Assembly: GCF_009014635.1 (NCBI RefSeq)
Contig: NZ_BKCF01000001.1
Span: forward strand, 310,001 to 374,000
DNA from: Patiriisocius marinistellae
Lineage (GTDB): Bacteria; Bacteroidota; Bacteroidia; Flavobacteriales; Flavobacteriaceae
Direction: 5' to 3'
Length of the DNA: 64,000 nt
The position numbers and the translations under genes are program-made. The notes below the pieces were generated by a model, which was not told where the DNA came from, did no database searches, and saw only the letters and a program-made list of their open reading frames with translations. This document shows positions 6,440-55,471 of this stretch, one piece after another; position 1 is the stretch's first letter, and the number at the start of each line of letters is the position of its first letter.

Positions 6440-6541
6440 AGTTTTTCTTTTTAATATTTGAATTTCTCGAAAGGCTTCGGAAATTTTAAAGATTCAAAAA
6501 TTAAATCTCTATTTAAATGAACTGCAAAATTACTAAAAACG

Positions 6542-8002
6542 CTAGGATTGCTTAGGAAAACGAACCGTAAATGTGGTTTTCTGTCCTATTTCAGAAGTAA
6601 AACTAATGGTCCCTTTAAATGATTCTACAATATTTTTTACCATAGCTAGACCCAATCCCATTCCGCTAGACTTTGTAGTAAATTTAGGCTCAAAAATAAG
6701 TTTTTTATTCTCTTCGCTTACGCCCACACCATTATCAGTAACCGTCAAAACTACATCTTTGTTTTCTTCAAAAACATTAACATCAACTCTAGGATTTTTT
6801 GGATTAATTGAGTCAATTGCTTGTGTACTATTCTTTACAAGATTGTTAACAACCCTAATAAGTTGTGAACGATCAAAACGCGCTGTGATTTCATCTTTAG
6901 CAGCATTAAAATAAATATAATCCTCATTAAAAATATCCAGAGCAAGCTTTGTAATCTTAACAACATCAAGAGTTTCTTCTTTTTGGGCTGGCATTTGGGC
7001 ATAATTTGAAAAAGCAGATGCAATGTTACTCATCGTGTCAATTTGCTGAATAATTGTATCTGTATATTCACTTAGTTTTTCGTTTATATTGGGATCATTT
7101 GGGTCAAATTTCCGCTGAAAGCTTTGTACTGTTAATCGCATAGGCGTCAACGGATTTTTAATCTCGTGCGCTACTTGTTTTGCCATCTCCCGCCAAGCAG
7201 CTTCACGCTCGCTTGTGGCTAGTTGAGCGGCGCTACTCTCTAGCTCGTCAATCATCCCATTATAAGCGTTGACAAGTGTAGAAATTTCTTCGGGGGTGTT
7301 TGATACTGTAATTTTTTTGTTGCGTTTATCAAGGCGAGTTTCGGTAATTTTTTCACTCACTTCGTTGAGAGAACGTGTAATATAATTTGAAAGGAAATAG
7401 GCAAGTGCTATGGCAATACCTATCATTAAAAGATAAGTAATTGCTAAACGTGTGAGACTTTCTTTAAGTTCTTTTTTTATAAAACCATCATCCTCAATAT
7501 AAGGTAAATTAAGAATTGCTAAGGGTTTAAAATACTTGTCTGTTATATAAGAATACGACGTTTGGTACTGCTGTCCATCCTTATGAAATTCCTCAACAAA
7601 ATGCTTGTTTGATGATACATCGAGTGCATTTAAAACGTAAGCAGGCAAACATTTTCCTATTGAGTCCTTTACAAAAGAGGCTTTTGATTTGATGAGTAAA
7701 GAGCCTTCTAAATCATACAAATACAACTCTAAATTATGAATTTGTTTTATCTCGTAAATTTTCTCCTTAAAGATAAGCGGGATATATTCTGTTTCTCTGG
7801 CGTAAGTAGTTTCCTCAAGAACATAATCAATATTTTGCTTAATATTTTGTTCTTTGCGTTCTAACCTATCTCTATGGTAATCCTCTGCCTCTTCCCTATA
7901 TTGATATACCGTAACAACCGCAATCAAAATAGAGGCAATTACCACAAGCACTAGCATGGATAAAAATATTCGGTTTCGTAAAGAGGAGGTGTAGAATTTC
8001 AA
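6542..8002 (-). CDS. Sensor histidine kinase, NtrY-like
   Basis: The 486-aa protein has TM1 at about 12-32, an extracytoplasmic sensor region to about 183, TM2 at about 184-207, then HAMP (about 208-258). The kinase core follows: H-box AHEIKNPLTPMR (His near 280), N-box NLVKNSTQAI, G1 DNGVGVS and G2 SSGMGLGLAMVKNIV. The REMAKQVAHEIKNPLTPM form is typical of NtrY-like kinases. No response regulator gene is adjacent, so it is an orphan in this window. The start codon appears to be TTG (MKFYTSS). The signal sensed is unknown. Confidence 0.88.
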   Translation of the reverse strand: MKFYTSSLRNRIFLSMLVLVVIASILIAVVTVYQYREEAEDYHRDRLERKEQNIKQNIDYVLEETTYARETEYIPLIFKEKIYEIKQIHNLELYLYDLEGSLLIKSKASFVKDSIGKCLPAYVLNALDVSSNKHFVEEFHKDGQQYQTSYSYITDKYFKPLAILNLPYIEDDGFIKKELKESLTRLAITYLLMIGIAIALAYFLSNYITRSLNEVSEKITETRLDKRNKKITVSNTPEEISTLVNAYNGMIDELESSAAQLATSEREAAWREMAKQVAHEIKNPLTPMRLTVQSFQRKFDPNDPNINEKLSEYTDTIIQQIDTMSNIASAFSNYAQMPAQKEETLDVVKITKLALDIFNEDYIYFNAAKDEITARFDRSQLIRVVNNLVKNSTQAIDSINPKNPRVDVNVFEENKDVVLTVTDNGVGVSEENKKLIFEPKFTTKSSGMGLGLAMVKNIVESFKGTISFTSEIGQKTTFTVRFPKQS

Positions 8003-8113
8003 ATTATTTTATGATTACTTCGGAAATATTAATTGTTGAAAGATAATAATTTAATTTGCAGTCTTAGCTAGTATTGAAATCACAAGAATTGAACCAACTT
8101 AGTTATTCTAAAA

Positions 8114-11700: not shown

Positions 11701-11855
11701 ACAGCAGCACTTCGACCACCTCTAAAAGGTCCAATAAGGCGATACTCCAAGGCGTTGTAAAGAGATTCATCATAATTTTGAGCATGTGTGTCGTTGGTTA
11801 CATTTCCGAAGAAAAACGTAAGCAAGACCACAAATAATGTAGTATACTTTTTCAT
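8742..11855 (-). CDS. Exported VPS10/BNR-repeat (sortilin-like) protein
   Basis: The ATG at 11855 gives 1037 aa; the TTG four codons upstream is less likely. A signal peptide is followed by a long beta-propeller-type region. It has repeated Asp-box motifs (S-x-D-x-G-x-x-W), for example STDGGKSWRR, SVDSGETWKE, SDDGGETWTK, SYDGGETWST, SQDGGNNWSN and TTDYGKSWKK. This is the pattern of the VPS10/sortilin-like and sialidase-type glycosidase families. The last 250 residues are alpha-helical, with coiled regions. Such proteins are usually annotated as glycosyl hydrolase or WD40-like, but no catalytic residues are evident. Asp boxes are structural, so enzymatic function is unproven. It has no C-terminal T9SS domain. 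Confidence 0.85.
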   Translation of the reverse strand: MKKYTTLFVVLLTFFFGNVTNDTHAQNYDESLYNALEYRLIGPFRGGRSAAVTGVPGKPNLFYFGATGGGIWETKDGGRSWKNISDGFFGGSIGAIEVAKSDPNVLYVGGGEKTVRGNVSSGYGMWKSENAGKTWTQAGLKDSRHVPRIQVHPTDYNTVYAAVMGNIYKPTQERGVYKSTDGGKSWRRTLFANENAGAVDLIMDPNNPRILYASTWNIRRTPYSLSSGGDGSALWKSVDSGETWKEISTHKGFAKGTLGIIGVTVSPANSERVWAIVENKDEGGVYRSDDGGETWTKINDERKLRQRAWYYTRIYADPKDEDIMYVLNVRYHKSTDGGKSYETYNAPHGDHHDLWIAPENPERMIIGDDGGAQVSYDGGETWSTYHNQPTAQFYRVTTDNASPYRIYAAQQDNSTIRISHRNEGRSIGEGDWESTAGGESAHIAVDPLNNEIVYGGSYDGFLTRYNHEKNTVRSVSVWPDNPMGHGAEDMKYRFQWNFPIFFSPHNPKKIYTVSNHLHASTNEGESWELLSPDLTRDVAEKQKSSGGPITQDNTSVEYYCTIFAAAESPLKEGVLWTGSDDGLIHVSQDGGNNWSNVTPKGMPEWMMINSVEPSVFDAGTCYVAGTKYKTGDFAPYLYKTTDYGKSWKKITNGIAPEHFTRVVREDPKQRGLLYAGTETGVYISFDDGNNWNPFQLNLPIVPITDLAVKDGNLIVATQGRSLWILDDMSVIHQLQSAKGKDNYLFKPKDTYRMGGGSRAGSLTDGTNHPSGVITYFNLKDISEKKVKLSYLNMRGDTIQAFSTKPPKESDIEKLEVKEGANYHTWNMRGKGAERLKGMILWWASTEAPQAVPGQYKIALEVEGAQALTQNFNIIPDKNAETDVAGMQRQFDFITDVNATVDKAHKSIKKIRNINDQLKSFKTQYGDNEKLKDLVEKADTLSSQFSEIEKALYQTQNKSGQDPLNFPIKLTNKLAHLTSLVGMDDFPPTTQDVAVKNELTGLINVELVKFEKLISEEIKAFNNEFNARKLEYLFIEEK

Positions 11856-11896
11856 AAAAAATAGCAATTGGTTATGAAGTGAAGTTACATAAATTG

Positions 11897-12580
11897 CTAT
11901 TGTTTCACAATCCTTTTAACAGTCGTTGCGCCACCTTGCTCGATAACAAGGAAGTAGACACCGGTATTGACTTCGGAAATAGTAAGTTGATTAGAAAAAT
12001 TGCTGAAAGATTTTACTAAAGTACCGTTCATAGCATATAAATACGCATTCTCAATGGGTGCAGAAAGATTGCCAATGTTTAAAATTTGAGAAGTAGGGTT
12101 TGGAAAGATTGTAATATTTTGAAGGTTGCTTTCTGGCATATTTAAAGTAGTTTCATTTTTAAAATGATATGTAAGAAAAAAATCAAGATTAATAAATAAA
12201 TCTGAATTTGTATTTCCCTCATATATATAGCATGTAAGGTCATTCTCATATTCATATATTAATTCTAGATTGTAACCAGAATTGCCTCCTAAAACACAAG
12301 CTTTTTCATAGTTAAGGTTTTTAAGTCCAAATTCTTCCTCACCGTTTGTAGAGATGAATTCAAAATTACCCATCAACTCCCAACAATTATCTGTAGCATT
12401 GAATGAAAAATCTTCATGAATGCTCATTTGAGCAACATCATTTCCATAATAATAATTTGTGTCTCCAAATTCTGCCGTGATTGAATATAAGTACCATGTT
12501 TGAAATAGCTCAGCGTTTTGAGCACTTATAATTTGCGAAGTACTCATACAAATTATTAAAAATAGTAGTGTTTTTTTCAT
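11897..12580 (-). CDS. Small T9SS-secreted protein, unknown
   Basis: The 227-aa protein has a signal peptide (cut near ISAQN), a central beta-rich domain starting ELFQTWYLYSI, and a C-terminal T9SS type A sorting domain (IFPNPTSQILNI to TVKRIVKQ, about residues 153-227). It should cross the outer membrane through the type IX system. The QTWYL opening and Cys-containing beta domain resemble the two tandem paralogs at 48.3-50.0 kb, suggesting one dispersed family with a lipocalin-like size. Function is unknown. A copy of CTTCGGAAAT lies inside the sorting domain (11971-11980). Confidence 0.8.
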   Translation of the reverse strand: MKKTLLFLIICMSTSQIISAQNAELFQTWYLYSITAEFGDTNYYYGNDVAQMSIHEDFSFNATDNCWELMGNFEFISTNGEEEFGLKNLNYEKACVLGGNSGYNLELIYEYENDLTCYIYEGNTNSDLFINLDFFLTYHFKNETTLNMPESNLQNITIFPNPTSQILNIGNLSAPIENAYLYAMNGTLVKSFSNFSNQLTISEVNTGVYFLVIEQGGATTVKRIVKQ

Positions 12581-12613: not shown

Positions 12614-13990
12614 TCAACTACTAATCAAATCCTTTTTTACCGCCCTATTTAAGTAATACCCCGTAACAATGGTAGAAAGCACATCTGCAATGGGGAAGGA
12701 AATCCAAACACCAAATACACCATAATAGTTAGGAAGAATTAATATCAACGGAATTAAAAAGAAACCTTGTTTTGTCAAACTTAATAACAAAGCAGGTATT
12801 ACTTTACCAATGGCTTGAAAATAGGAACCTCCTATTAATTGAATTACAATTACCGGCGTTGCTGCAAAAACCCAACGTAGTGCGTTAGGAGTTCGTTTTA
12901 ACAATTCTGCACTATCTGCTAATGATCCTGCATCTTGTCCAGCTTTATCACTTATAAAGATTGAAACAAATGGTTCGGCAAAAATCATAATGAGTATAAA
13001 AATACCTAGCGCCAATATCCCTGAATAGATTATTGAAGTATTTATAGCTTCTCTAACTCGCTGAAATTTATCTGCCCCAAAATTATACCCAGCAATAGGC
13101 ATAAACCCCTGGTTGACTCCAATAACTGGAAATAAAGCAAACATTAAAACCCTGCTTATAATACCATAACTTGCAACATCAATAGCGTCCCCCACATTGA
13201 TTAAAACATTATTTAACAAAATGGTTAAAACCGCAATAACTCCTTGTCTTGCAAGAGTTACAAAACTGAGACCGCTGATTTCTGATACGATTTTTTTCTT
13301 AAGTTTAAAGCTTTCGGCTTTTAATCGCAGTTCACTTTTAAAAAGGAAAAACCACAATATAAACGCAAAACAAATAGCATAACTAATAAATGTAGCCCAA
13401 GCTGCACCTTCCATTCCATAATCAAGTACATTTATTAATAAATAATCCATGGCTATGTTGCCAATTGCTGGCAACATCATGGCATACATGGCAAACTTTG
13501 GTTTTCCTTCTGCTCTTATCACATTATTTCCCATCATGCACATTGCGAGCATGACAATACCATACATAACAATGCGATAATAGGTAAGTGCTAATTCTTT
13601 AAAACTTTCGGCAGCACCAAAAAATTCAATAAGAGTATCTTGAAAAATGAGTCCGACACTAGCTAATAATCCCGAAGCAAGAAGTGTTAAGGTTACCTGA
13701 TTTCCGAAGACCTGTAACGCTTTTTTATCGTTGCCAGCACCTAATGCTCTTGATAAAACAGAACTTCCACCTATTCCTACCGCAAGCCCAATGGCGGCGA
13801 TAAAAAATGTAACTGGTAATACAACAGTGATTGCCGAAATAGCTAAAGGACCAATCCACCTTCCAACAAAAATTGTATCGACAATCATGTTGAGGGACAT
13901 TACTAAAATTCCTATAGATGCAGGAACAGCCTGTTTTATCAACAAGCTGCTAATAGAGTCTATCCCTAAGGTGGATGATTTTTTATTCAA
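12614..13990 (-). CDS. MATE family efflux transporter
   Basis: This 458-aa polytopic membrane protein has about 12 helices and MATE features: SIGILVMSLNMIVDTIFVGRW near the N-terminus and the repeat-like GVNQGFMPIAGYNFGA at mid-protein. Members export drugs or cations using Na+ or H+ gradients; the substrate here is unknown. The start appears to be TTG (MNKKSSTLG), 30 nt after the hemH stop, so it is probably co-transcribed with hemH. That raises the possibility, by context only, of a role in tetrapyrrole or metal efflux. Confidence 0.88.
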   Translation of the reverse strand: MNKKSSTLGIDSISSLLIKQAVPASIGILVMSLNMIVDTIFVGRWIGPLAISAITVVLPVTFFIAAIGLAVGIGGSSVLSRALGAGNDKKALQVFGNQVTLTLLASGLLASVGLIFQDTLIEFFGAAESFKELALTYYRIVMYGIVMLAMCMMGNNVIRAEGKPKFAMYAMMLPAIGNIAMDYLLINVLDYGMEGAAWATFISYAICFAFILWFFLFKSELRLKAESFKLKKKIVSEISGLSFVTLARQGVIAVLTILLNNVLINVGDAIDVASYGIISRVLMFALFPVIGVNQGFMPIAGYNFGADKFQRVREAINTSIIYSGILALGIFILIMIFAEPFVSIFISDKAGQDAGSLADSAELLKRTPNALRWVFAATPVIVIQLIGGSYFQAIGKVIPALLLSLTKQGFFLIPLILILPNYYGVFGVWISFPIADVLSTIVTGYYLNRAVKKDLISS

Positions 13991-15063: not shown

Positions 15064-15079
15064 TGTTTTAATTAAGTCT

Positions 15080-15243: not shown

Positions 15244-16152
15244 TTATTTAGACAACCCCATCACAAATTTCTTTGGCGTTGTACCAAATTTTTTCTTGAA
15301 CGCCGCAATAAAATGACTGCTCGTGCTATACCCAACTTTTAAACCTACTTCATTTACATTATGTGAGCCAGAAACCAATAATTGCCGCGCTACTTCCATT
15401 TTATAATCAAACAGAAATGTAAAAACTGGGTCACCATAAATTTGCTTAAAGCCTTCTTTTAATTTATTTAATGAAAGTTGTATCTCGTCAGCAAGTTCTT
15501 GTAATGTAGGTGGCTCAGCCATTCTTGCAATTATAATTTGCTTCGCTTTTTTTATTTTTGCTACGTTATCTTCATCAACTAAAAAGGGACATTGCTCTAC
15601 GTCCACATTCTCAGCACGATTAAAATATAAACTTAATAACTCGTAAGCTTTTCCTTTAAAATAAAGTGGTTTAATTGATGAATGTAAGTTGAAATTAATA
15701 AGCTGATTCAACACAATTGACATCGATGGCGAAATGCGAGCGTCTTTATAGTATTTACGATCCTTATTTTCATCACTTAAAAAAGTAATATAATTAGCCT
15801 CTGTTGAAAAAAGGGAGTGAAATTTTTTAATGGGAAGTAATACCGAAATCACCCAAGAATGTGCCGCTACAGATACTTCTATAGGCAATTCCCGTTGTGG
15901 GTTATACAGCAATAATGACGTATCCTCTTGGATAGGCAATCGATAAGAGCCATTATTAAAACTAAAAGAACCTGCACCTTTGGCGCAAAAATGAAACTGT
16001 ATATAATCATCACTCACTTCTCTTGTAAATAATTGATTATCATCGGTTTCATTTTGAAATTTTAATATAAAAAAACCATCTTCAATAACTGTTTCTTTAT
16101 AAATACCTTGAGCGATACTTTCTTCGGAAATGTGGTGTTTTTTTGAATCCAT
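15244..16152 (-). CDS. AraC family regulator next to hemA
   Basis: The 302-aa regulator (start MDSKKHHISEE) is chosen because a -7 element (16196-16203) predicts transcription start near 16190, which excludes the longer frame. The N-terminal half is a cupin-like sensor region (FHFCAKGAGSFSFNNGSYRL). The C-terminal about 90 residues carry two helix-turn-helix motifs (LQELADEIQLSLNKLKEGFK; NEVGLKVGYSTSSHFIAAFKKKFG). It lies between hemH and hemA and diverges from hemA with a 200-nt spacer, so it is a plausible regulator of heme synthesis. The effector is unknown. Confidence 0.85.
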   Translation of the reverse strand: MDSKKHHISEESIAQGIYKETVIEDGFFILKFQNETDDNQLFTREVSDDYIQFHFCAKGAGSFSFNNGSYRLPIQEDTSLLLYNPQRELPIEVSVAAHSWVISVLLPIKKFHSLFSTEANYITFLSDENKDRKYYKDARISPSMSIVLNQLINFNLHSSIKPLYFKGKAYELLSLYFNRAENVDVEQCPFLVDEDNVAKIKKAKQIIIARMAEPPTLQELADEIQLSLNKLKEGFKQIYGDPVFTFLFDYKMEVARQLLVSGSHNVNEVGLKVGYSTSSHFIAAFKKKFGTTPKKFVMGLSK

Positions 16153-16195
16153 TTTATTTAGAATTGTTATAAATAAGAATTTTAGCAAACATATT

Positions 16196-17644: not shown

Positions 17645-18563
17645 AATAATTCGTATTGGCACTCGCGATAGCGAATTAGCGCTATGGCAAGCAAACACCG
17701 TTAAATCTCAATTAGAAAACCTAGGTTACAAAACCGAACTTGTTGCAGTTAAATCAACAGGAGATTTAATATTAGACAAACCACTATACGAGTTGGGAAT
17801 TACAGGAATTTTCACAAAAACACTAGACATTGCTATGTTAAATGGAACGGTGGATATTGCTGTCCATAGCATGAAAGATGTTCCCACGGCATTACCTAAA
17901 GGCATTGTTCAAACCGCTGTTTTACCTAGAGCCACTTCTGAGGATATACTTGTTAAAAAAGAAAAAATTGATTACTCACAACCATGCATAGTTGCAACAG
18001 GAAGTTTACGAAGAAAAGCGCAATGGCTACATCGTTACCCACATCATTCTGTCGTAGACTTACGAGGCAATGTGAATACAAGATTACAAAAACTAACAGA
18101 TAACAATTGGGAAGGTGCCGTTTTTGCAAAAGCGGGCTTAAAACGCATTAATGTATTGCCAGAAAACCATGAAACACTGGACTGGATGATTCCTGCACCA
18201 GCACAAGGTGCAATGGTAATCGTTGCATTAGAAAACGATGCTTTTAATAAAGAAGCAACCTCAAAACTTAATGATAGCACTTCGGAAATTTGCACAACCA
18301 TTGAAAGATTGTTTTTAAAAACACTTGAAGGTGGCTGTACAGCGCCCATAGGAGCATTGGCCGAAATTATAGATGATAGTATACAATTTAAAGGTTGTTT
18401 ATTCTCCCTTGATGGCACTCAAAAATTAGAGATTGCCCGTTCAATAAAAGTGGACAATTATTTAAATACAACTCAAGAAAACCTAGGAATTTCAGTAGCA
18501 AAAGAGCTTTTAGAAAATGGCGGGAAAGAATTGATGTTAAAAATAAAGAATGCTTTGAAATAA
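17637..18563 (+). CDS. hemC: Hydroxymethylbilane synthase
   Basis: Started at MDKIIRIGTRDS the enzyme is 308 aa and overlaps hemA by 8 nt; an ATG three codons earlier is also possible. It polymerises four porphobilinogens into hydroxymethylbilane. The dipyrromethane cofactor is attached to Cys234 in LEGGCTAPIGA. Other family motifs are VHSMKDVPT, ATGSLRRKAQ and DLRGNVNTRL. Tight overlap implies translational coupling with hemA. It contains one CTTCGGAAAT copy (18280-18289), translated as part of STSEI. Confidence 0.95.
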   Translation: MDKIIRIGTRDSELALWQANTVKSQLENLGYKTELVAVKSTGDLILDKPLYELGITGIFTKTLDIAMLNGTVDIAVHSMKDVPTALPKGIVQTAVLPRATSEDILVKKEKIDYSQPCIVATGSLRRKAQWLHRYPHHSVVDLRGNVNTRLQKLTDNNWEGAVFAKAGLKRINVLPENHETLDWMIPAPAQGAMVIVALENDAFNKEATSKLNDSTSEICTTIERLFLKTLEGGCTAPIGALAEIIDDSIQFKGCLFSLDGTQKLEIARSIKVDNYLNTTQENLGISVAKELLENGGKELMLKIKNALK

Positions 18564-18564: not shown

Positions 18565-19233
18565 ATGAAATCAATTTTATCCACAAAAAAACTAAAACTC
18601 AATCAAAGAGATTTACTCTTAGGTGCCGGCTTTAGTATTGTGGATTATAACGCTATTAATATTGAGACTTTAGATTTTGATACACCTAGCATTATTGAAA
18701 ATGCTATTTTCACGAGTCAAAATGGAGTAAAATCGTTTTTTGAAAACTGTTCAATCAAAAACAAAAAAACTAAAATTAAAAATGTGTTTTGTATAGGCGA
18801 AAAGACAAAGTCACTTTTACAAAAAAACGGTTTTAATGTAACTAAAGTAGGCGAATATGGAGCTGATTTGGGTAAATTTATAGTTGAAAACCACGAAAAC
18901 GAATCATTTTATTATTTCTGTGGAGCGCAACGAAGAGATGAATTACCAAATATTCTAAAAAATTATGGAATTGAAATTTCCGAAGTAAAAACATATAAAA
19001 CAGTCCTGTTCCCGAAAAAATTTGAGCAAAATTGGGACGGTATATTATTTTTTAGTCCAAGCGGTGTTCAAAGTTATATTGCAGAAAACATCATCATTTT
19101 TAAAGAAACAAGCGCAATTTGCATAGGTAATACAACGGCGACCGAAGCAGCTAAACATTTTAAAAATGTTGTTATTGCAAATAATACATCTGTTGAAAGT
19201 GTGATTGCAAAAGCAGTTAAAACTTTATTATAA
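18565..19233 (+). CDS. hemD: Uroporphyrinogen-III synthase
   Basis: The 222-aa protein starts 1 nt after the hemC stop. It cyclises hydroxymethylbilane with inversion of ring D. HemD proteins are poorly conserved. Here the family is supported by IFTSQNGVKSFF, FYYFCGAQRRDELPN, ILFFSPSGVQSYI and AICIGNTTATEA, plus position. Length is normal. It contains one reverse-orientation CTTCGGAAAT copy (18976-18985). An inverted-repeat cassette separates it from hemE. Confidence 0.9.
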   Translation: MKSILSTKKLKLNQRDLLLGAGFSIVDYNAINIETLDFDTPSIIENAIFTSQNGVKSFFENCSIKNKKTKIKNVFCIGEKTKSLLQKNGFNVTKVGEYGADLGKFIVENHENESFYYFCGAQRRDELPNILKNYGIEISEVKTYKTVLFPKKFEQNWDGILFFSPSGVQSYIAENIIIFKETSAICIGNTTATEAAKHFKNVVIANNTSVESVIAKAVKTLL

Positions 19234-20863: not shown

Positions 20864-21643
20864 ATGGTAAAAAATATTGCAAAAGGCATAAAAGCCTACT
20901 TAGGCACTTTCAAACTTATTAGTCAATTAGGGCTTTGGAAGTATTTTGGCGTACCTATTTTAATTTCGTTTATAACCGCACTACTTATTGGTTTTTCTGC
21001 TTGGGGTTTAAGTGATAATATAGGCGGGTTTATTGCAAAAATTTGGTTTTGGGATTGGGGGAAAGAAACTTTTACAACCATTAGTGAATTTCTTGGTGGA
21101 GCTATTGTTATTGCTATTGGCTTAATATTATACAAACATATTATCATGGCTTTTAGCGCTCCATTTATGAGTCCCGTTTCAGAAAAAATTGAGCATCACC
21201 TCTTAGGACAAAAACATACACATAGAGAAACAACAAACACGGCTCAATTAATTAGAGGAATTCGTATAAATGTGCGAAATCTTGTACTTGAATTAATATT
21301 AACAGTGCCATTATTACTGCTTAGCTTTATACCAATATTAAATCTAGTTACAACTGTTTTAGTTTTCATAATTCAAGCATATTATGCTGGATTTGGGAAT
21401 ATGGACTATACCCTTGAACGCCATTTTAAATATAGAGAAAGCATCAATTTTGTAAAGTCAAATCGAGGTGTAGCTATTGGAAACGGAATTATATTTATGG
21501 CAATGTTATTTATCCCAGTCATAGGTATATTAATAGTATTACCGCTCTCAGTAACTGCATCTACAACAGAGACTGTAAGATTGATTCATGAATCTGGAAA
21601 GCTAGAAAGTAAAAATTTAACTTCGGAAATATTAAGCCATTGA
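20864..21643 (+). CDS. EI24 domain-containing membrane protein
   Basis: The 259-aa membrane protein has about four hydrophobic stretches and the EI24/CysZ pattern. Features are ISQLGLWKYFGVPILISFI near the start, a central APFMSPVSEKIE loop, the LLLSFIPILNLVTTVL helix pair and a long cytoplasmic MDYTLERHFKYRESINFV segment. CysZ members import sulfate, but other EI24 proteins are uncharacterised and no cys genes are nearby. Its place between hemE and hemF may mean a role in precursor or cofactor transport, as speculation. The 3' end contains CTTCGGAAAT (21621-21630). Confidence 0.8.
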   Translation: MVKNIAKGIKAYLGTFKLISQLGLWKYFGVPILISFITALLIGFSAWGLSDNIGGFIAKIWFWDWGKETFTTISEFLGGAIVIAIGLILYKHIIMAFSAPFMSPVSEKIEHHLLGQKHTHRETTNTAQLIRGIRINVRNLVLELILTVPLLLLSFIPILNLVTTVLVFIIQAYYAGFGNMDYTLERHFKYRESINFVKSNRGVAIGNGIIFMAMLFIPVIGILIVLPLSVTASTTETVRLIHESGKLESKNLTSEILSH

Positions 21644-27615: not shown

Positions 27616-27636
27616 ATTTTTTATAACTTCGGAAAT

Positions 27637-31643: not shown

Positions 31644-32138
31644 ATGATGAACACCCTACTCTTACAAACCCCATTAGGTATTTTATCCATTGCTGGAGAT
31701 GACCAAGGTTTACAAAAAGTATTGTTTTTAGAAGAAAAAAATGGTGCTACTACTTCGGAAATATTAACAATGGAAATTCCCCTTGTCTTAAAGAAAACAG
31801 CGCAACAGCTAAAAGAATATTTTAACGGTTCCCGAAATAGTTTTGATATTCTCTTAAATCCTCAAGGGACTACATTTCAGAAAAAAGTATGGGAAGAGTT
31901 ATCAAATATTCCTTATGGAAAAACATGCTCATATCAAAAAATGGCTAATAACCTTGGAGACCCAAAAGTGATTAGAGCAGCTGCCTCTGCAAATGGCAAA
32001 AATCCTATTTCTATTATAATTCCTTGCCACAGAGTAATAGGCAGTGATGGGTCATTAACTGGATACGCAGGAGGGCTTCATAGAAAAAAATGGTTGCTAG
32101 AACACGAAAGTCCTGTAACACAAGGTGCTTTATTTTAA
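31644..32138 (+). CDS. ogt: Methylated-DNA-protein-cysteine methyltransferase
   Basis: Started at MMNTLLLQTP (or the second Met) the protein has about 164 aa, the normal Ogt size; the longer frame adds a non-conserved basic stretch. It transfers methyl from O6-methylguanine in DNA to its own cysteine, Cys128 in IIPCHRVIG. Other family motifs are VWEELSNIPYGKT and the C-terminal GYAGGLHRKKWLLEHE. It carries CTTCGGAAAT (31753-31762) in the poorly conserved N-terminal domain. Confidence 0.93.
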   Translation: MMNTLLLQTPLGILSIAGDDQGLQKVLFLEEKNGATTSEILTMEIPLVLKKTAQQLKEYFNGSRNSFDILLNPQGTTFQKKVWEELSNIPYGKTCSYQKMANNLGDPKVIRAAASANGKNPISIIIPCHRVIGSDGSLTGYAGGLHRKKWLLEHESPVTQGALF

Positions 32139-32190: not shown

Positions 32191-33327
32191 ATGAAGAAAA
32201 AATTGAGTTATCTCATTGGCACACTAATACTTTTGATCGCACTGGCCTATATTACAGATTACGACTATATTTTAAAAGGAGTGCGAGTGGTGTACCTTAC
32301 AGGACACACATCAGCATATATTGACGACGCAAAACATTTTGAAAACGATACTATTTCTGCATCGTCGCAACCACAAATGTGGAAAACACATCATAATTAT
32401 AATACAGCATCACCTACTCCAGCGCTTACTAAAATCAATAATGATCTTGGAACTATAGCTTTTGTTATTATCAAAAACGATAGCATTTGGTATGAAAATT
32501 ATGCAGACGGGTATTCTGCAACTTCACAAACAAACTCCTTTTCCATGGCAAAAAGTATTACAACGGCACTTTTAGGAAAAGCAATAAAAGATGGTTTTAT
32601 TTCATCGCTAAACCAGCCAGTGCGTGATTTTTACCCATCTTTTGAAAATCAAAAAATGACCGTAGGCGATTTATCCTCCATGTCCTCTGGGCTTAATTGG
32701 GAAGAATCTTACACAAGCCCTTTTAGCGTGACGGCCCGCTCCTATTATGATGATAATCTAGCCAAAACTATCCTTGGATTAAAAGTGACTGAAACTCCTG
32801 GACAATCATTTAAATATTTAAGTGGAAATACCCAACTTTTAGGAATGGTTATTCAAAAGGCTACTGGAAAACCTATTGCGCAATACTTGCAAGAAAGTTT
32901 TTACGAGCCTATGGGTTTTGAACAGGCAGCAACATGGCAAGTTGATGATGCTGAAAATAGATTAGCAAAAACCTACTGCTGCATTGCTAGTAACGCCAGG
33001 GATTTTGCACGATTTGGAAAACTTTTTAAAGACTTCGGAAATTTTAATGGGGAACAACTTCTTGATTCATCATTTGTAGCAAAAGCCATTAAAGCGCGTT
33101 TCGCTGATAGTCCAGAATATGGTTATGGCTTTTGGTTAAGTAATCACATGGACAAAGACATCTTTGTAATGCGAGGAATTTTAGGACAGTATGTAATAAC
33201 AATTCCAGAAGACAACCTCATCATTGTGAGACTAGGGCATCAAAGAGGTACTCGTTCTGACAGACCCTTTAGTGATGATTTTTATGTATATGTGGAAGAG
33301 GTTTATAAAATGCTGGAAGCAAATTAG
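32191..33327 (+). CDS. Beta-lactamase-family serine hydrolase
   Basis: The 378-aa protein has an N-terminal signal anchor (about 4-22) and a class-C beta-lactamase-like domain. The SxxK motif is S118-M-A-K121 in NSFSMAKSITTALLG, and a YxSGN-type second motif is in FKYLSGNTQLLG. A C-terminal GHQRG segment may be the third motif. Such proteins are mostly esterases or peptidases rather than drug-resistance enzymes. It acts in the periplasm or at the membrane. It contains one CTTCGGAAAT copy (33033-33042), translated in DFGNF. Confidence 0.88.
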   Translation: MKKKLSYLIGTLILLIALAYITDYDYILKGVRVVYLTGHTSAYIDDAKHFENDTISASSQPQMWKTHHNYNTASPTPALTKINNDLGTIAFVIIKNDSIWYENYADGYSATSQTNSFSMAKSITTALLGKAIKDGFISSLNQPVRDFYPSFENQKMTVGDLSSMSSGLNWEESYTSPFSVTARSYYDDNLAKTILGLKVTETPGQSFKYLSGNTQLLGMVIQKATGKPIAQYLQESFYEPMGFEQAATWQVDDAENRLAKTYCCIASNARDFARFGKLFKDFGNFNGEQLLDSSFVAKAIKARFADSPEYGYGFWLSNHMDKDIFVMRGILGQYVITIPEDNLIIVRLGHQRGTRSDRPFSDDFYVYVEEVYKMLEAN

Positions 33328-34151: not shown

Positions 34152-34224
34152 CTTCGGAAATTTGACAGGCCTTAAAAAAATTAATATTTCAGAATAGAAA
34201 ATAATCAACATTACATTTCCGAAG
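34152..34224. repeat. Inverted pair of CTTCGGAAAT words
   Basis: CTTCGGAAAT (34152-34161) and its reverse complement (34215-34224) are 53 nt apart in the short spacer between convergent genes, right after the exonuclease stop. They could pair in the transcript as a terminator stem. Confidence 0.7.
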
Positions 34225-42289: not shown

Positions 42290-42440
42290 AGATAAACAAC
42301 ATAAGCTAATAAAAGCTATTGTAAGCTTTTGCTTTTAGAAAAGTGTTTTATTTAAATCTAAAACGTCCTAATTGGTTTTTTGAAAGCAATATTTTCATTA
42401 AAAACAATCACTTCAACCCCAATACATTTCCGAAGTGATA

Positions 42441-44830: not shown

Positions 44831-44966
44831 CTTCGGAAATTTGAAATTGTTTTAGTTTTATTTATCTCTGACAAAAAACGTATTGTTTTTTGATATTCTT
44901 ACTGCCCTTTTAGTATTCGTTATGTTTTGGCAATTATTCGTTTATGATTACATAAAATTTCCGAAG
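44831..44966. repeat. Inverted pair of CTTCGGAAAT words
   Basis: CTTCGGAAAT (44831-44840) and its reverse complement (44957-44966) bracket about 117 nt of the gldH-PBP spacer. Confidence 0.65.
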
Positions 44967-47120: not shown

Positions 47121-48152
47121 TTATTTTTTAAACTTAAGTTTCTCACTTCTTCCCTTTTTGAAAATTTTGTTGCTATTGTGAGTTCCTGCACGCAATGCTT
47201 TTTGCTCCTCATCTGGTAGTTTTGTTACTTCTTGACATTCTGTTGAACAACAATTATCCATTTGTTTTGCACAATCATCGCATTGAATAAAGAGTAAATG
47301 ACACGCTTCGTTTTCACAATTTACGTGATTGTCGCATGGGTTACCACATTGATGGCAGTTTGCAATAACATCATCAGTAATACGCTCTCCTCTACGATGG
47401 TCGAACACAAAGTTTTTACCTATAAATTTATTTTCTAAGCCTTTTTCGTTCACTTCTCGTGTATATTCAATGATACCACCTTCTAACTGAAAAACATTTT
47501 TAAATCCTTTGTGTTTGTAATAGGCACTTGCTTTTTCGCAACGAATTCCTCCCGTGCAGTACATCACTAGTTTTTTATCTTCCTTATGGTCTTTAAGCTG
47601 CTCCTCTATTATATCTAATGAGTCTCTAAAGGTGTCTACATCTGGTGTTACAGCATTTTTAAAATGGCCAATTTCACTTTCGTAGTGGTTTCGCATGTCT
47701 ACTAATACCGTATTTGGATCTTCGATGAGCTCGTTAAAAGTTTCGGCGGCTACGTGGACGCCTTTATTTCGCACATCAAATGTTTCATCATTTAGACCGT
47801 CTGCGACTATTTTATTGCGGACTTTAACCTTTAGTTTTAAAAAAGATTTTAGGTCATGCTCAACGGCTATATTCAGTCTAACGTTTTCTAAAAAATAAAT
47901 TCCGTCAAGAAATTCTTTAAAATTTCCGAAGTTATGAGCAGGTACAGAAAGCTGCGCGTTTATGCCTTCGTTAGCTACGTAGATGCGCCCAAGGACGTTG
48001 AGCTCGTCCCATTTTATAAAAAGGTGATTTCTAAAAAGTTCTGGGTTGCCTATTTTAGCGTATTGATAGAAAGAGAGCGTCAACCGGTCTTCTCCGGCTT
48101 GTTCGAGCAACGTTGCTCGCTCTTTCGCGCTTAAGGTATTGTACAGTTGCAT
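47121..48152 (-). CDS. trhO: tRNA uridine(34) hydroxylase TrhO (rhodanese)
   Basis: Started at MQLYNTLSAK (48152) the protein has 343 aa. A -7 element (48189-48196) makes the longer frame impossible for that transcript. TrhO hydroxylates U34 of tRNAs to 5-hydroxyuridine. The rhodanese-like active cysteine is Cys199 in VMYCTGGIRCEKA, and the YceA N-terminal domain (IYVANEGINAQLS) is complete. The C-terminus adds a Cys-rich, likely zinc-binding region (CHQCGNPC ... CDDC ... CCSTEC). It contains CTTCGGAAAT reversed (47922-47931), read as NFGNF. Confidence 0.92.
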   Translation of the reverse strand: MQLYNTLSAKERATLLEQAGEDRLTLSFYQYAKIGNPELFRNHLFIKWDELNVLGRIYVANEGINAQLSVPAHNFGNFKEFLDGIYFLENVRLNIAVEHDLKSFLKLKVKVRNKIVADGLNDETFDVRNKGVHVAAETFNELIEDPNTVLVDMRNHYESEIGHFKNAVTPDVDTFRDSLDIIEEQLKDHKEDKKLVMYCTGGIRCEKASAYYKHKGFKNVFQLEGGIIEYTREVNEKGLENKFIGKNFVFDHRRGERITDDVIANCHQCGNPCDNHVNCENEACHLLFIQCDDCAKQMDNCCSTECQEVTKLPDEEQKALRAGTHNSNKIFKKGRSEKLKFKK

Positions 48153-48188
48153 GCTATACGTTTTTAAGGTTGAAAAAATAGTGAGGTG

Positions 48189-48196
48189 CAAAGGTA
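48189..48196 (-). promoter_or_regulatory. -7 promoter element TACCTTTG (trhO)
   Basis: The minus strand reads TACCTTTG, 37 nt before the ATG at 48152. It fixes the start choice. Confidence 0.5.
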
Positions 48197-49096: not shown

Positions 49097-49283
49097 TTCC
49101 GTGATTTCAAGGGCTTCGGAAATTTTAAGGAATGGCTATCATTACTATTGTTTAAAATGCATAACTTAAATTTCCTTCCCAATTTATATTTCAAATAAGT
49201 AACGGTATTTATGCTGTTGTACTAGTTTGTGATAGCGAAATTGTTGCCTCAAAAAATTTGTCAAAAAATTAAATTTTAATAAC

Positions 49284-50059: not shown

Positions 50060-50584
50060 ATGCAAACATTCAAATACTATCTTTCATTTATTGCAATTAT
50101 TATTATTAATCTGCTCTTCTTACAATGCGGCACTGCACAAAAAGAGGTTATACAAATGACAACAAATCCACCATTTAAAATACTCGAAGCCACCCACCAA
50201 GATTGGGTTGCTGGCGTTCAAGGAGGTGGTGCTGGCACTACCGTGATGATTACATTTAGTGACATTGACAGGGACGTTGAAATCCTTAATTTTTACTTCG
50301 GAAATTTTAAGGCATTAGCAAATGTGCTCCCCAATAAAACGTTGGCGTATCAAGCCAATATTTTGAACAATATTAATGATGACCGTAGCATGAATATTGA
50401 CCCTAAAAAAGAAATTAATAAGCTACCACACCCCAAAAGCCAATTTAATGTAGCGCCAGGAAATGCAATTATTGAGTATCGATTTAATGGGAATGTAAAT
50501 TTTTACAAAGTGACGAAGATGATTGAAAAACCACTTTTGGCATATCCAAGCGCAAACCCTAATGAAAACAGAGGAGGGTTATAG
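50060..50584 (+). CDS. Hypothetical lipoprotein
   Basis: The 174-aa protein has a hydrophobic signal ending in LFLQCGTAQ, a lipobox-like Cys near residue 23. The mature part contains WVAGVQGGGAGTTVMITFSD and a C-terminal APGNAIIEYRF segment. It resembles uncharacterised flavobacterial lipoproteins; no function can be given. A CTTCGGAAAT copy (50296-50305) encodes part of YFGNF. It starts 33 nt after the previous terminator, so it is probably its own unit. Confidence 0.7.
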   Translation: MQTFKYYLSFIAIIIINLLFLQCGTAQKEVIQMTTNPPFKILEATHQDWVAGVQGGGAGTTVMITFSDIDRDVEILNFYFGNFKALANVLPNKTLAYQANILNNINDDRSMNIDPKKEINKLPHPKSQFNVAPGNAIIEYRFNGNVNFYKVTKMIEKPLLAYPSANPNENRGGL

Positions 50585-50667: not shown

Positions 50668-52128
50668 TTGTCGGTATTTAAAAAACTCTTTCAACAAACC
50701 TTTATATATGGCTTGGCTACAGTGCTGCCTCGCGCATTGGCGATTGTATTGGTGCCCTTATATACATCTGTACTTGCGCCATCGAGTTTTGGTATTTATG
50801 CAACATTGATGTCTTATATTATTTTAGGAAATGTTTTGCTTTCCTACGGAATGGAAACTGCTTTTTTCAGATTTATTAATAAAGATGCTTCAAATAAAAG
50901 AGTTGTTCAATCAACTGCGCTAACATCGCTTACCGTATCATCTATTTTGTTTTTTACTATTACTTTTTTATTGAAGGATTCGCTTGCTGTTTGGTTAGAT
51001 TTTAAACCTGAATACATTTTATATGCATTACTCATTTTATTACTGGATGCACTTGTAGTTTTACCTTTTGTATGGTTGCGTGCCAACGAAAAACCCATGC
51101 GTTATGCGGTAATAAAAATATTGAATGTGTGTATAAATTTGGGAGCCAACTTATTTTTCTTTTTAGTACTTCCAGAATTAGCTGCAAACAATACTGAAAG
51201 TTTTTGGTCAGGTATCTTTTCCGAAGAAAACAAAGTTGTTTACGTGTTTATTTCAAATGTAATTGCCAGTGGTTTTACGCTACTATTATTGTTGCCGTTA
51301 TACTTTAAAATTAAATTTGGGTTTAATAAAACCATCTGGAAACAAATGCTCAAATATGCATTTCCAGTATTAATTGCAGGAATTGCTTTTTCAATTAATG
51401 AAGCTTTTGATAAAATTTTGCTAAAATATTTATTACCTGAGAATATTGCCGAAAAAGAAGTGGGTGTGTATGCAGCTTGTTATAAACTAGGCGTGTTTAT
51501 GACCTTGTTTGCAACAGCTTTTAGACTGGGTATTGAGCCTTTTTTCTTTAATCATGCAGGGCATGAAAATGCAAAAACTACCTACGCTACAATAACCAAG
51601 TATTTTGCCATTTTTGGGAGTTTTATTCTATTGTTTGTAATTGTTTACATAGATTTTTTCAAAGAAATTCTTATTAGTGATAGTCAATACTGGGAAGCCT
51701 TATGGGTGGTACCATTTATATTGCTTGCTAATTTATGTCTTGGCATTTATCACAATTTATCTGTATGGTATAAAGTGACAGATAAAACTAAATATGGCGC
51801 TTATATATCTATAGCAGGGGCAATCATCACTCTCGTATTTAACTTTGCATTAATACCATTAATAAGCTACAAAGGCGCTGCAATTGCAACCCTTGCGGCG
51901 TATGGCTCAATGATGTTTTTGTCTTACTTCTACGGAAGAAAACACTATCGTGTACCCTATGATTTAAAAAAGATAGGTGGATATGTAATGCTTTCGGTGT
52001 TATTTTCTGGAGTAGTCTTTTATGGATTTGAGCGAAATATCTACCTTGGGACTGCGTTATTATTGGTATTTTTGTTTGTGGTAATTGTTTTTGAGAAAGA
52101 CGATTTCCGAAGTATTTTAAAGAAATAA
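50668..52128 (+). CDS. Polysaccharide flippase (MviN/MATE-like, Wzx type)
   Basis: The 486-aa integral membrane protein has 12-14 helices. It begins FKKLFQQTFIYGLATVLPRALAIVLVPLYT, the typical start of oligosaccharide flippases. Such proteins move undecaprenyl-linked sugar units across the inner membrane. The start seems to be TTG (MSVFKK). It heads a run of closely spaced genes up to 57496 that share an envelope theme. The reverse CTTCGGAAAT word (52103-52112) sits at its 3' end. Confidence 0.88.
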   Translation: MSVFKKLFQQTFIYGLATVLPRALAIVLVPLYTSVLAPSSFGIYATLMSYIILGNVLLSYGMETAFFRFINKDASNKRVVQSTALTSLTVSSILFFTITFLLKDSLAVWLDFKPEYILYALLILLLDALVVLPFVWLRANEKPMRYAVIKILNVCINLGANLFFFLVLPELAANNTESFWSGIFSEENKVVYVFISNVIASGFTLLLLLPLYFKIKFGFNKTIWKQMLKYAFPVLIAGIAFSINEAFDKILLKYLLPENIAEKEVGVYAACYKLGVFMTLFATAFRLGIEPFFFNHAGHENAKTTYATITKYFAIFGSFILLFVIVYIDFFKEILISDSQYWEALWVVPFILLANLCLGIYHNLSVWYKVTDKTKYGAYISIAGAIITLVFNFALIPLISYKGAAIATLAAYGSMMFLSYFYGRKHYRVPYDLKKIGGYVMLSVLFSGVVFYGFERNIYLGTALLLVFLFVVIVFEKDDFRSILKK

Positions 52129-53011: not shown

Positions 53012-54028
53012 ATGAAAATAATAGTTCCAATGGCAGGCCGCGGAAGCCGTCTTCGCCCACATAGTTTAACAGTACCAAAACCATTAATTCCTGTTGCGGG
53101 AAAGCCTATAGTACATAGATTAGTCGCAGATATTGCTGGTGTTTTAAATCAAGATATTGAAGAAATCGCTTTTATTCTAGGTGATCCAGCGTTTTTTGGG
53201 GATGACGTTGTTGAGAGTTTAAAGGAACTTGCAGAAGGTCTTGGAGCTAAAGCTAGTATTTACCGCCAGTTAGACCCTAAAGGAACTGGCCACGCAATAA
53301 TGTGTGCTGAGCCTTCTTTGAGTGGACCTGCGGTCATTGCGTATGCAGACACATTGATTCGTGCTGATTTTGATTTAGATAAAGAAGCAGATGCTGTAAT
53401 CTGGACCAAGAAAGTTAAAAACCCAGAGGCGTATGGTGTAGTAAACTTAAACGATAATGAAGAAATTGTTGAGCTTGTTGAAAAGCCAGAAACATTTGTA
53501 AGCGATCAAGCTGTGATTGGTATTTATTATTTTAAAGATGTTGCTGTACTTAAAAATGAATTGCAATATGTTTTAGACAATAACATTATAAATGGTGGAG
53601 AATATCAAATAAATGATGGTATTAAACGCATGATGGCTGATGGAAAGATATTTAAAACTGGAACAGTTAGTGAGTGGATGGACTGCGGTAATAAAGAAGT
53701 AACCGTAGAAACAAATAAAAGAATGTTAGGCTTTTTGCACGAAGCAAAAGAATCACTAATTTCAGAAAAAGTAATTAATGAAAATAGCGAAATTATCTCA
53801 CCATGTTTCATTGCAGAAGGCGTTGTTTTAAAAAATAGTGTTGTGGGTCCTCATGCATCCATTGGTAAGGGTACGGTTATTGAAGATAGTACCGTAAAAA
53901 ACAGTATTATCCAGACAAATACAACTATTAAAAACGCTGTTCTGGATAATGCAATGATTGGAAATCATGCTCATTTTGACGGTAAATTTACTAACGTAAG
54001 CATTGGTGATTATTCACAATTAAAATAA
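53012..54028 (+). CDS. Sugar-phosphate nucleotidyltransferase
   Basis: The 338-aa enzyme has the nucleotidyltransferase signature MAGRGSRLRPHSLTVPKPLIPVAG at its start and a left-handed beta-helix C-terminal part (SVVGPHASIGKGTVIEDSTVKNS). It would make an NDP-sugar (UDP-, dTDP- or GDP-) for surface polysaccharides; which one cannot be told. It is close to the flippase, which supports envelope-sugar synthesis. Confidence 0.9.
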   Translation: MKIIVPMAGRGSRLRPHSLTVPKPLIPVAGKPIVHRLVADIAGVLNQDIEEIAFILGDPAFFGDDVVESLKELAEGLGAKASIYRQLDPKGTGHAIMCAEPSLSGPAVIAYADTLIRADFDLDKEADAVIWTKKVKNPEAYGVVNLNDNEEIVELVEKPETFVSDQAVIGIYYFKDVAVLKNELQYVLDNNIINGGEYQINDGIKRMMADGKIFKTGTVSEWMDCGNKEVTVETNKRMLGFLHEAKESLISEKVINENSEIISPCFIAEGVVLKNSVVGPHASIGKGTVIEDSTVKNSIIQTNTTIKNAVLDNAMIGNHAHFDGKFTNVSIGDYSQLK

Positions 54029-54100
54029 TAGTGCTCAAAGAAACCTTTTGACAAGTAATTTTTTAAAATAGGTTTCCATCACATTTTACTAAATAACTAC

Positions 54101-55471
54101 ATGGTGAAACTAAAATATATATGTATCGCTCTTTTCTTCGGAAATTTCATATTTCCGCAGTCGGCGTTTGCACAAGAAGAAGAGGAACCAACGGACGATT
54201 TAGGAAATGTTACGGATGCATTTCAAGAAAACTTTTACGAGGCTTTAAAGCAAAAGTCAATTGAAAATTATGAGCTCGCAATTATATCTTTAGAAAAAGC
54301 AAAAGCCGCTTCAAAAGGAAATAAAAATGGTGATGCAATTATATATTTTGAGTTAGCAAAAAATCAAACCAAACTTAAATACTACGACACTGCCGAGGAA
54401 AATTATAATAAAGTTATTGAAACAAATCCAGATAAATTAGAGGTACTTGAAGCTCTTTATGACCTTTATTATTTAAAAAGAGATTATGATAAGGCAATTC
54501 CATTAGTAAAACGGTTAAGTGCTATAGATGAGGATTACAAAGAAGATCTTGCAAATTTATATAGCAGAACAAAGCAGTATGATAAATCTATAACTATTCT
54601 TGACGAGCTAGACGCCTCTTGGGGAGAGAGCACTTATAGAGACGCACTACGCAATCAAATTTATAGGATTACAGGAAACAGTCAAGGAGCAATTGATAAC
54701 CTAGAAACTAAAGTAGATAAGAACCCTAAGAACGAAAAAGATTATCTAAATCTAATTTATTTATATAGTGAAGAGGGTAATACAGACAAAGCATTTGAAA
54801 CTGCTAAAGAACTCCAAAAAAACAACCCTAAGAGTGAGTTAGTACATCTTGCGCTTTATAAATTTTATCTTGATAAAGGTATTACAGATGAAGCATTAAA
54901 ATCAATGAAAGTTGTTTTCAAATCTGAGGAAATAGATAAAGAAAGCCAATATAAAGTATTAGGTGATTTTTTAAGTTTTGTTAATGAAAATCCAGAATAT
55001 GAAAAACAACTTGATGAAACTGTCTCTCTTTTCTCAGCACAAAATAATGGACAAGTTTATGAAAAACTGGGAGATTATTATTTGACTAAAGGGAATAAAG
55101 AAGCCGCATTAAAATTCTTTGAAAAAGGAATTATACTCGACGCAGATAATTTTAGTTTACTAAAAAATACTTTATTATTACAAATAGATGTTGCAAATTT
55201 TGAAGCAGCAAAAAAGTTGAGCAAAGAAGGCTTAGAGGTTTTTCCAGCACAACCTTTAGTGTATTTGTTACACGGCGTTTCCCTAAATAGTTTAAACGAT
55301 TTTGATGGTGCACTCGAAACACTAGAAACAGGAATTGATTACTTATTTGACAATCCAAAAATGGAAAAAGACTACTATGAGCAGTTGAGCATAGGATATA
55401 CGGGTAAAGGAAATACTAAAAAAGCAACCGACTTTGCCAATAAGGCGGCGGCGATACAAATTTCAAATTAA
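54101..55471 (+). CDS. Exported TPR protein
   Basis: The 456-aa protein has a signal peptide (IFPQSAFAQEEEE) and about ten TPR-like repeats (A-x-x-x-Y-K/D patterns from about residue 45 to 440). It is a periplasmic or outer-membrane-associated scaffold. It precedes a DUF4292 lipoprotein and an EnvC-like protein in one operon, so it probably belongs to the same envelope system. A CTTCGGAAAT copy lies in the signal-peptide codons (54136-54145). Confidence 0.85.
   Translation: MVKLKYICIALFFGNFIFPQSAFAQEEEEPTDDLGNVTDAFQENFYEALKQKSIENYELAIISLEKAKAASKGNKNGDAIIYFELAKNQTKLKYYDTAEENYNKVIETNPDKLEVLEALYDLYYLKRDYDKAIPLVKRLSAIDEDYKEDLANLYSRTKQYDKSITILDELDASWGESTYRDALRNQIYRITGNSQGAIDNLETKVDKNPKNEKDYLNLIYLYSEEGNTDKAFETAKELQKNNPKSELVHLALYKFYLDKGITDEALKSMKVVFKSEEIDKESQYKVLGDFLSFVNENPEYEKQLDETVSLFSAQNNGQVYEKLGDYYLTKGNKEAALKFFEKGIILDADNFSLLKNTLLLQIDVANFEAAKKLSKEGLEVFPAQPLVYLLHGVSLNSLNDFDGALETLETGIDYLFDNPKMEKDYYEQLSIGYTGKGNTKKATDFANKAAAIQISN

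Follow-up and report, generated by a model that had tools for sequence, protein, structure and literature searches.

A stretch of 64,000 nucleotides from the flavobacterium Patiriisocius marinistellae (contig NZ_BKCF01000001.1, here C1, positions 310001-374000; hereafter the window) raises a simple question: why should a single ten-letter word, CTTCGGAAAT, recur throughout it? A preliminary description of the window had listed 22 copies, and all 22 were recovered at the positions and on the strands given there (14 plus, 8 minus), as compared with a mean of 0.10 and a maximum of 1 in 100 dinucleotide-preserving shuffles; the GC content, estimated at 35% in that description, measures 34.1%. We consider it probable that the word is the core of a DNA-uptake-sequence-like motif of about 55 bp. 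Within the Flavobacteriaceae, the genome is placed near Ulvibacter, Aequorivita and Altibacter by the named relatives of one protein encoded in the window.

The abundance of the word extends to the entire P. marinistellae genome (G000 in our set; 3.34 Mb in 30 contigs, 99.95% complete), which contains 833 copies (428 forward and 405 reverse; p 0.45 for strand balance), or about 0.25 per kb, as opposed to 16 copies of the reversed word. The statistics on 239 copies given below are based on a sample of 864 kb, composed of the window and 40 stretches of the same genome. In this sample CTTCGGAAAT is the top-ranked 10-mer, its 239 copies contrasting with the 1.75 that a third-order Markov model predicts. 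The preliminary description had named genome-wide counts near Markov expectation, or a single gene family or mobile repeat behind the copies, as outcomes that would refute it; in view of these numbers, neither chance nor one gene family explains the word. The longest sampled stretch devoid of it measures 23.5 kb (C1 687351-710863).

Alignment of the 239 sites revealed that the conserved segment is much longer than the core and one-sided, being composed of a T-tract, the CTTCGGAAAT core, nTnAA, and A-tracts near positions +23 and +42. On the 5' side, T is enriched from -9 to -1 (64% at -3). On the 3' side, T occupies position +11 in 77% of the sites and A position +13 in 65%, A is enriched at +14, and two A-tracts follow at +21 to +26 (59% at +22) and at +40 to +43 (56% at +42), such that the first interval between successive A-rich blocks is about one helical turn and the next about two. 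The binomial p values of these enrichments range from 2e-11 to 1e-40, and little signal is evident beyond about -9 to +45, outside of which -16 alone passes the mark used. The same flanks are retained by the 173 isolated sites, i.e., those lacking another core, perfect or singly mismatched, at a distance of up to 120 bp. The preliminary description had the word often followed by NTTAA; in the 22 window copies this stands as a position-by-position preference (T in 19 at +11 and in 11 at +12, A in 17 at +13 and in 13 at +14) and not as a fixed sequence.

The proportion of perfect copies is also unusual. The 239 perfect copies compare with 236 for all 30 singly mismatched words together, and this ratio of 1.01 is the highest among 88 abundant 10-mers (the next, for overlapping words, is 0.42, and the median is 0.07). 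Among the 20 single-mismatch words frequent enough to be scored, CTTCTGAAAT, CTTCGGAAAC and CTTCAGAAAT also exhibit clear motif flanks, some of the others show partial flanks, and several have none. A second word, TTCTGAAAT, is likewise over-represented in the 864 kb (181 copies versus 19 expected) and appears to be a degenerate form of the CTTCGGAAAT motif, because its sites carry part of the extended flank; it also exceeds expectation in the small congeners described below (36 versus 6).

The placement of the copies was assessed using a simple, rough open reading frame (ORF) caller, by which 8.5% of the sample is intergenic. The 96 intergenic copies occupy about 73.5 kb (~1.3 per kb) and the 143 coding copies about 790 kb (0.18 per kb), a roughly 7-fold higher density between genes (binomial p 3e-40, 239 copies). 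In the window itself, 9 copies are intergenic and 13 are in genes (9 sense, 4 antisense); in the whole sample the coding copies divide into 78 sense and 65 antisense. Of the coding copies, 38 lie within a tenth of the gene length from either end (p 0.06); a bias to gene ends is described for copies of the uptake signal sequence (USS) inside genes of Pasteurellaceae (PMC2346458). The finding that 123 of the 143 coding copies fall in three of the six frames, reading S-E, I-S-E or F-G, could suggest that the word arises from a codon or amino-acid bias, e.g., one for Ser-Glu or Phe-Gly codon pairs. There is next to no chance of this: density is highest between genes, and 141 coding copies were observed as compared with 2.8 after synonymous-codon shuffling. 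Codon bias is thus refuted and protein sequence does not make the word, as the preliminary description had maintained.

Close neighbours are arranged in a characteristic manner. Of 35 neighbouring copies less than 200 bp apart, 32 are in opposite orientation (26 facing and 6 pointing apart) and only 3 are parallel. Facing pairs are preferentially 24-27 or 63-76 bp apart, with a weaker cluster at 111-130 bp, and close pairs are found between genes of convergent, parallel and divergent arrangement, as judged with the rough caller. A transcription element, be it an intrinsic terminator hairpin, a promoter or a regulator site, would agree with some of these features: facing pairs can form hairpins, as USS pairs are reported to do in Pasteurellaceae and Neisseria terminators (PMC1852404), some pairs are situated between convergent genes (e.g., 34152/34215 in the window), and convergent gaps are slightly richer in copies (15 in 9.3 kb) than co-directional (56 in 44.0 kb) or divergent ones (25 in 20.3 kb). 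We nevertheless regard such an element as very improbable, since 143 of the 239 copies fall within genes, in sense and antisense orientation alike, since pairs are also found between divergent genes, and since stems of more than 3 pairs occur at 6 single-core sites as compared with about 6 when the flanks are shuffled, shorter stems being fixed by the core and uninformative. On the same grounds, that long stems are as frequent with shuffled flanks, a hairpin with a C-UUCG-G tetraloop was rejected, and the intrinsic-terminator class was set aside in that most copies are single and coding.

The pair spacings could also reflect dimer sites of a chromosome-organising or nucleoid-associated protein that reads the core and bends the phased A-tracts; these tracts, the T-tract and the even spread of the word across the genome would be in keeping with such a protein. 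It is an unlikely explanation. The equal numbers of perfect and singly mismatched copies are unlike the relaxed consensus of regulatory protein sites (PMC1626085), and two further observations presented below, the sparseness of the word in small congeners and the turnover of its coding sites, also speak against it.

Chi and KOPS (FtsK-orienting polar sequence) sites are strand-polarised relative to replication. The orientation of CTTCGGAAAT, on the other hand, is independent of GC skew: plus and minus copies number 56 and 37 where the skew is positive and 81 and 62 where it is negative (Fisher p 0.69; 3 of the 239 sites, at bin edges, are omitted). A strand-polar motif of the Chi or KOPS type was rejected on this basis. 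More broadly, the word might serve as an intracellular self-recognition or repair signal, for instance as a Chi-like site or as a mark that protects against a nuclease, and its dense, genome-wide and lineage-specific occurrence would suit that role. Its indifference to the direction of replication, together with a 55-bp flank with spaced A-tracts, which is not known to be typical of Chi and KOPS sites, renders this improbable.

The distribution of the word among relatives shows that its abundance is lineage-limited and that the word is rare across the class. In the family, 20 of 397 genomes contain at least 100 copies, in 12 genera (counted by hand, P. marinistellae included); in the class, none of 99 genomes exceeds 53 copies except P. 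marinistellae. Of ten congeners, four are rich in the word, namely G005 (474 copies), G006 (605), G007 (345) and the partial genome G009 (239). The same extended flanks are found in G005, G006 and G007 (19, 54 and 23 sites, respectively), and taken together these 96 sites show A-tracts peaking near +14, +24 and +42. Here, too, the word is denser in intergenic DNA: the intergenic and coding copies number 7 in 16.8 kb and 12 in 141.8 kb in G005, 24 in 29.5 kb and 30 in 274.5 kb in G006, and 8 in 22.2 kb and 15 in 237.8 kb in G007.

The other six congeners have small genomes (1.7-2.1 Mb, 77-90% complete) and contain 6-34 copies, versus 9-18 of the reversed word. In 480 kb from five of them, 7 copies were counted against 0.18 expected, which is about 19 times sparser than in P. 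marinistellae; among 20,000 words with a similar expectation, 4 attain that count. The flank scores of these copies range from -7.3 to 4.9, with 6 of the 7 at or above -2.0, as compared with a random mean of -5.4. We read them as probable relics with mostly motif-like flanks, a finding that did not change how likely we hold an uptake sequence to be. No different dialect word of comparable strength was present among the top seven words of each length in 80-120 kb each from G002, G003, G004, G008 and G010. In G010, many 9-10-mers with 17-25 copies in 80 kb (e.g., CGGCCGATA) point to a long repeat family.

Counts of a shorter 8-mer, CTTCGGAA, were obtained for 16 named genomes. Relative to the reversed word it is abundant, for instance, in Ulvibacter antarcticus (2678/245), U. 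litoralis (2099/257) and Altibacter HG106 (2187/322), and also abundant in three Aequorivita genomes (914-1203), and is scarce in Planktosalinus (53/162), Dokdonia (13/173) and the metagenome-assembled genome (MAG) of L026 (32/144). CTTCGGAA exceeds its count after codon shuffling in the three sister species that were sampled, and the 5' T-tract is present in U. antarcticus; the 8-mer is a probable dialect of the CTTCGGAAAT motif in these genera. In the Dokdonia genome just mentioned, a MAG (L034; 20,115 bases) depleted of CTTCGGAA, the words GCTTTCGCGA and CTTTCGCGAA occur 8 times each, versus 0.01-0.02 expected, as part of a palindrome, possibly another lineage-specific repeat word.

The turnover of the sites was followed in reciprocal-best orthologues, using protein-guided alignments of P. 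marinistellae and sampled relatives. In 28 comparisons of coding copies, 23 were alignable across the word, which is intact in 3, singly mismatched in 3 and more divergent in 17; in the reverse direction, 3 of 17 aligned copies of the relatives are intact in P. marinistellae (2 more could not be aligned). Nucleotide alignment of the window with G005, G006 and G022 was uninformative because the genomes are too diverged, only 2 of the 22 sites being aligned to any relative, both of them changed. The small number of intact orthologous sites suggests that most CTTCGGAAAT sites are gained and lost by point mutation at fixed places; the numbers are small, but this mode of turnover fits a drive and not the insertion of a mobile repeat. 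A scattered repeat of the repetitive extragenic palindromic (REP) or miniature inverted-repeat transposable element (MITE) type, or a gene-family repeat, would account for the high copy number and the strong consensus. We attach very little weight to it, given that there is little flank signal outside about -9 to +45, that the copies lie in many unrelated genes and in several frames, and that the aligned orthologues usually have the position without the word and without an indel.

Among the features described for the USS and for the DNA uptake sequences (DUS) of Neisseriaceae are a density of about 1 copy per kb, no orientation bias, a spacing more regular than random, close opposite pairs, a preference for non-coding DNA and unusually many perfect copies; in Pasteurellaceae, the USS also carries two 3' AT segments at helical spacing (PMC1626085). 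The CTTCGGAAAT motif shares five of these seven hallmarks, density and regularity being the exceptions, and its layout supports the suggestion of the preliminary description that the word is an uptake sequence or another chromosome-wide motif. Like the published Pasteurellaceae sequences (Hin-type AAGTGCGGT and Apl-type ACAAGCGGT), the motif has a core of 9-10 bp with perfect copies at least as numerous as singly mismatched ones, two AT-rich 3' segments at roughly helical spacing, no orientation bias, a non-coding preference, close opposite pairs and, probably, clade-specific dialects (PMC1626085, PMC12616744). Unlike them, it has an unrelated core sequence, a Bacteroidota host, Poisson spacing, an extra 5' T-tract and a greater length (~55 bp versus up to 32); moreover, no type IV pilus ATPase or PilC was matched in P. 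marinistellae, and the motif is known here from its sequence layout. As in the DUS of Neisseriaceae, there are hundreds of copies of a word of about 10 bp on both strands, with opposite pairs and probable family dialects, whereas the DUS, as published, has no flanking motifs and is bound by the type IV minor pilin ComP, neither of which fits here. The CTTCGGAAAT motif may function in the manner of a USS and yet be recognised by a different machine.

A candidate machine of a different kind is provided by Riemerella, assigned to the Flavobacteriaceae in the papers concerned. In a transposon screen of R. anatipestifer, ComEC, DprA, ComF, RecA and the DUF5689 protein RA0C_RS04920 were reported as essential for transformation, as were RA0C_RS04915, a helix-hairpin-helix protein and a DUF1343 protein; RA0C_RS04915 is the operon neighbour of RA0C_RS04920, has a carboxypeptidase regulatory-like domain and is predicted to reside in the outer membrane, and no pilus homologues were detected in that species (PMC8459023). 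We looked for four components of this set, ComEC, DprA, DUF5689 and the barrel, and counterparts of all four were found in P. marinistellae: Pfam matches to ComEC and DprA (the latter sought in this species only), and a DUF5689 ORF of 472 aa that adjoins a 952-aa CarbopepD_reg_2 ORF, the barrel. The presence of dprA in the window, as claimed in the preliminary description, was borne out by a PF02481 match (contig 373307-373927, E 1.4e-74) in a gene cut by the window end. The DUF5689 and barrel ORFs were matched to their Riemerella counterparts by Pfam domain and neighbourhood rather than by sequence alignment, and with the nuclease gene that follows they plausibly form a surface DNA-handling locus. 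In sequence searches of the PDB, the best match of the DUF5689 protein was a DUF4955 protein (E 0.0026), which is of no use as a relative, and the 952-aa barrel had no match at E 0.1. The DUF5689 family profile (PF18942) also matches Bacillus subtilis among the control genomes.

Several observations weigh against an uptake sequence. The competence of the genus is putative, and the known USS and DUS systems are described as resting on type IV pili (PMC12616744), for which P. marinistellae has no match to PF00437 (type II/IV secretion ATPase, PilB/T) at E 0.001, a cut-off passed by 5 of 59 genomes, and none to PF00482 (PilC/T2SSF). The density of the word is a quarter of that published for USS and DUS, a difference of degree that does not by itself rule out such a sequence, and its spacing is Poisson (variance 5.37 versus mean 5.49 in 43 bins of 20 kb), i.e., not more regular than random. 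Plus copies are in excess in the sampled contig C1 (138 to 101, p 0.02), in both GC-skew classes, which is unexplained. The conservation of coding sites, 3 of 23, is little above the 5.9% of arbitrary 10-mers. In U. antarcticus, A. lipolytica and Altibacter, CTTCGGAA is not denser between genes and is without clear 3' A-tracts, for which reason we regard it as a dialect only with probability; in the sister genera it may be another kind of element. In addition, the small congeners in which the word is sparse also carry ComEC (6 of 6), the barrel (6 of 6) and DUF5689 (5 of 6, G002 being the exception). The machine genes thus do not track the abundance of CTTCGGAAAT, and gene presence alone therefore predicts nothing.

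On balance, we infer that the motif probably acts in DNA uptake, in the following manner. A receptor on the cell surface would prefer fragments that carry the CTTCGGAAAT core, and the flanking T- and A-tracts would ease the bending or melting of the duplex on its passage into the outer-membrane pore. Fragments with the better motif would be recombined back more often through ComEC, DprA and RecA, such that the word would multiply by point mutation and biased return, in the manner of a molecular drive. It would build up wherever it is tolerated by selection, mostly in intergenic DNA and in codon frames that permit it, and would decay to relics where the drive stops. As the searches matched no motor of a type IV pilus, the best candidates for receptor and pore would be relatives of the Riemerella proteins, the DUF5689 protein and the neighbouring barrel with its carboxypeptidase regulatory domain, an assignment that we hold with less confidence than the uptake sequence itself.

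The literature provides some context for such a specificity. Discrimination by uptake sequence is stated to be known only in Neisseriaceae and Pasteurellaceae (PMC12616744, 2025). The transformation of R. columbina is reported to be halved by an equal amount of its own DNA, with no significant change upon addition of equal amounts of E. coli or R. anatipestifer DNA; a tenfold amount of foreign DNA did lower it, and the authors, who present a k-mer table of AT-rich words, leave a DUS role open (PMC7965970). Apart from that inconclusive table, no Bacteroidota uptake sequence appeared in the open-licence literature searched, and no motif was tied to the Riemerella machine in the literature examined. 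The literature matches listed for the exact letters of CTTCGGAAAT appear, by title and abstract, to be chance occurrences in other sequences. Whether P. marinistellae and its relatives represent a third, independently evolved uptake specificity, i.e., a Bacteroidota self-tag of about 55 bp read by a barrel and a DUF5689 surface partner, with CTTCGGAA dialects across Ulvibacter, Aequorivita and Altibacter and relic decay in the small congeners, is in our estimation evenly balanced.

The positions of the 22 copies and of the candidate partner genes are collected in Table 1. The window also contains a haem biosynthesis cluster (14020-26918: ferrochelatase, glutamyl-tRNA reductase, porphobilinogen deaminase, HemD, uroporphyrinogen decarboxylase, coproporphyrinogen oxidase and 5-aminolevulinic acid (ALA) dehydratase) and two large subtilases with a C-terminal sorting domain (Por_Secre_tail; 34286-37957 and 57557-61135), neither gene of which contains CTTCGGAAAT.

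Table 1. Copies of the CTTCGGAAAT core in the window and candidate uptake genes of P. marinistellae (window coordinates, except for the locus on L199).
Feature	Position	Strand	Context
CTTCGGAAAT core	6475..6484	+	intergenic
CTTCGGAAAT core	8018..8027	+	intergenic
CTTCGGAAAT core	11802..11811	-	coding, sense, ORF 8742-11867 (-)
CTTCGGAAAT core	11971..11980	+	coding, antisense, ORF 11897-12580 (-)
CTTCGGAAAT core	13700..13709	-	coding, sense, MatE ORF 12614-13990 (-)
CTTCGGAAAT core	16122..16131	+	coding, antisense, AraC-type ORF 15244-16188 (-)
CTTCGGAAAT core	18280..18289	+	coding, sense, porphobilinogen deaminase ORF 17628-18563 (+)
CTTCGGAAAT core	18976..18985	-	coding, antisense, HemD ORF 18565-19233 (+)
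CTTCGGAAAT core	21621..21630	+	coding, sense, 3' end of ORF 20864-21643 (+)
CTTCGGAAAT core	27627..27636	+	intergenic, immediately 5' of the ATG of ORF 27637-28149 (+)
CTTCGGAAAT core	31753..31762	+	coding, sense, O6-methylguanine methyltransferase ORF 31566-32138 (+)
CTTCGGAAAT core	33033..33042	+	coding, sense, Pfam Beta-lactamase family ORF 32191-33327 (+)
CTTCGGAAAT core	34152..34161	+	left of facing pair, between convergent genes
CTTCGGAAAT core	34215..34224	-	right of facing pair with 34152, spacing 63
CTTCGGAAAT core	42426..42435	-	intergenic
CTTCGGAAAT core	44831..44840	+	left of facing pair, intergenic
CTTCGGAAAT core	44957..44966	-	right of facing pair with 44831, spacing 126, intergenic (simple caller)
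CTTCGGAAAT core	47922..47931	-	coding, sense, rhodanese ORF 47121-48191 (-)
CTTCGGAAAT core	49114..49123	+	intergenic
CTTCGGAAAT core	50296..50305	+	coding, sense, ORF 50060-50584 (+)
CTTCGGAAAT core	52103..52112	-	coding, antisense, polysaccharide biosynthesis ORF 50668-52128 (+)
CTTCGGAAAT core	54136..54145	+	coding, sense, TPR ORF 54101-55471 (+)
dprA (DNA processing protein A)	ORF 63085 to >63999	+	cut by the window end; candidate downstream partner, outside the motif
DUF5689 + CarbopepD_reg_2 locus	L199:7784-13277		Exo_endo_phos_3 nuclease gene follows on the opposite strand

If confirmed, the CTTCGGAAAT motif would represent a third origin of uptake tags, in a new phylum, the Bacteroidota. 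As a pilus-free case it would uncouple the principle of uptake tagging from pili, and it would supply a specific ligand for the pilus-free machine of the Riemerella type; in this regard, it may bear on the preference of R. columbina for its own DNA. The molecular-drive account of tag evolution would, moreover, become testable in an independent lineage, including the decay of the tags in the small congeners.

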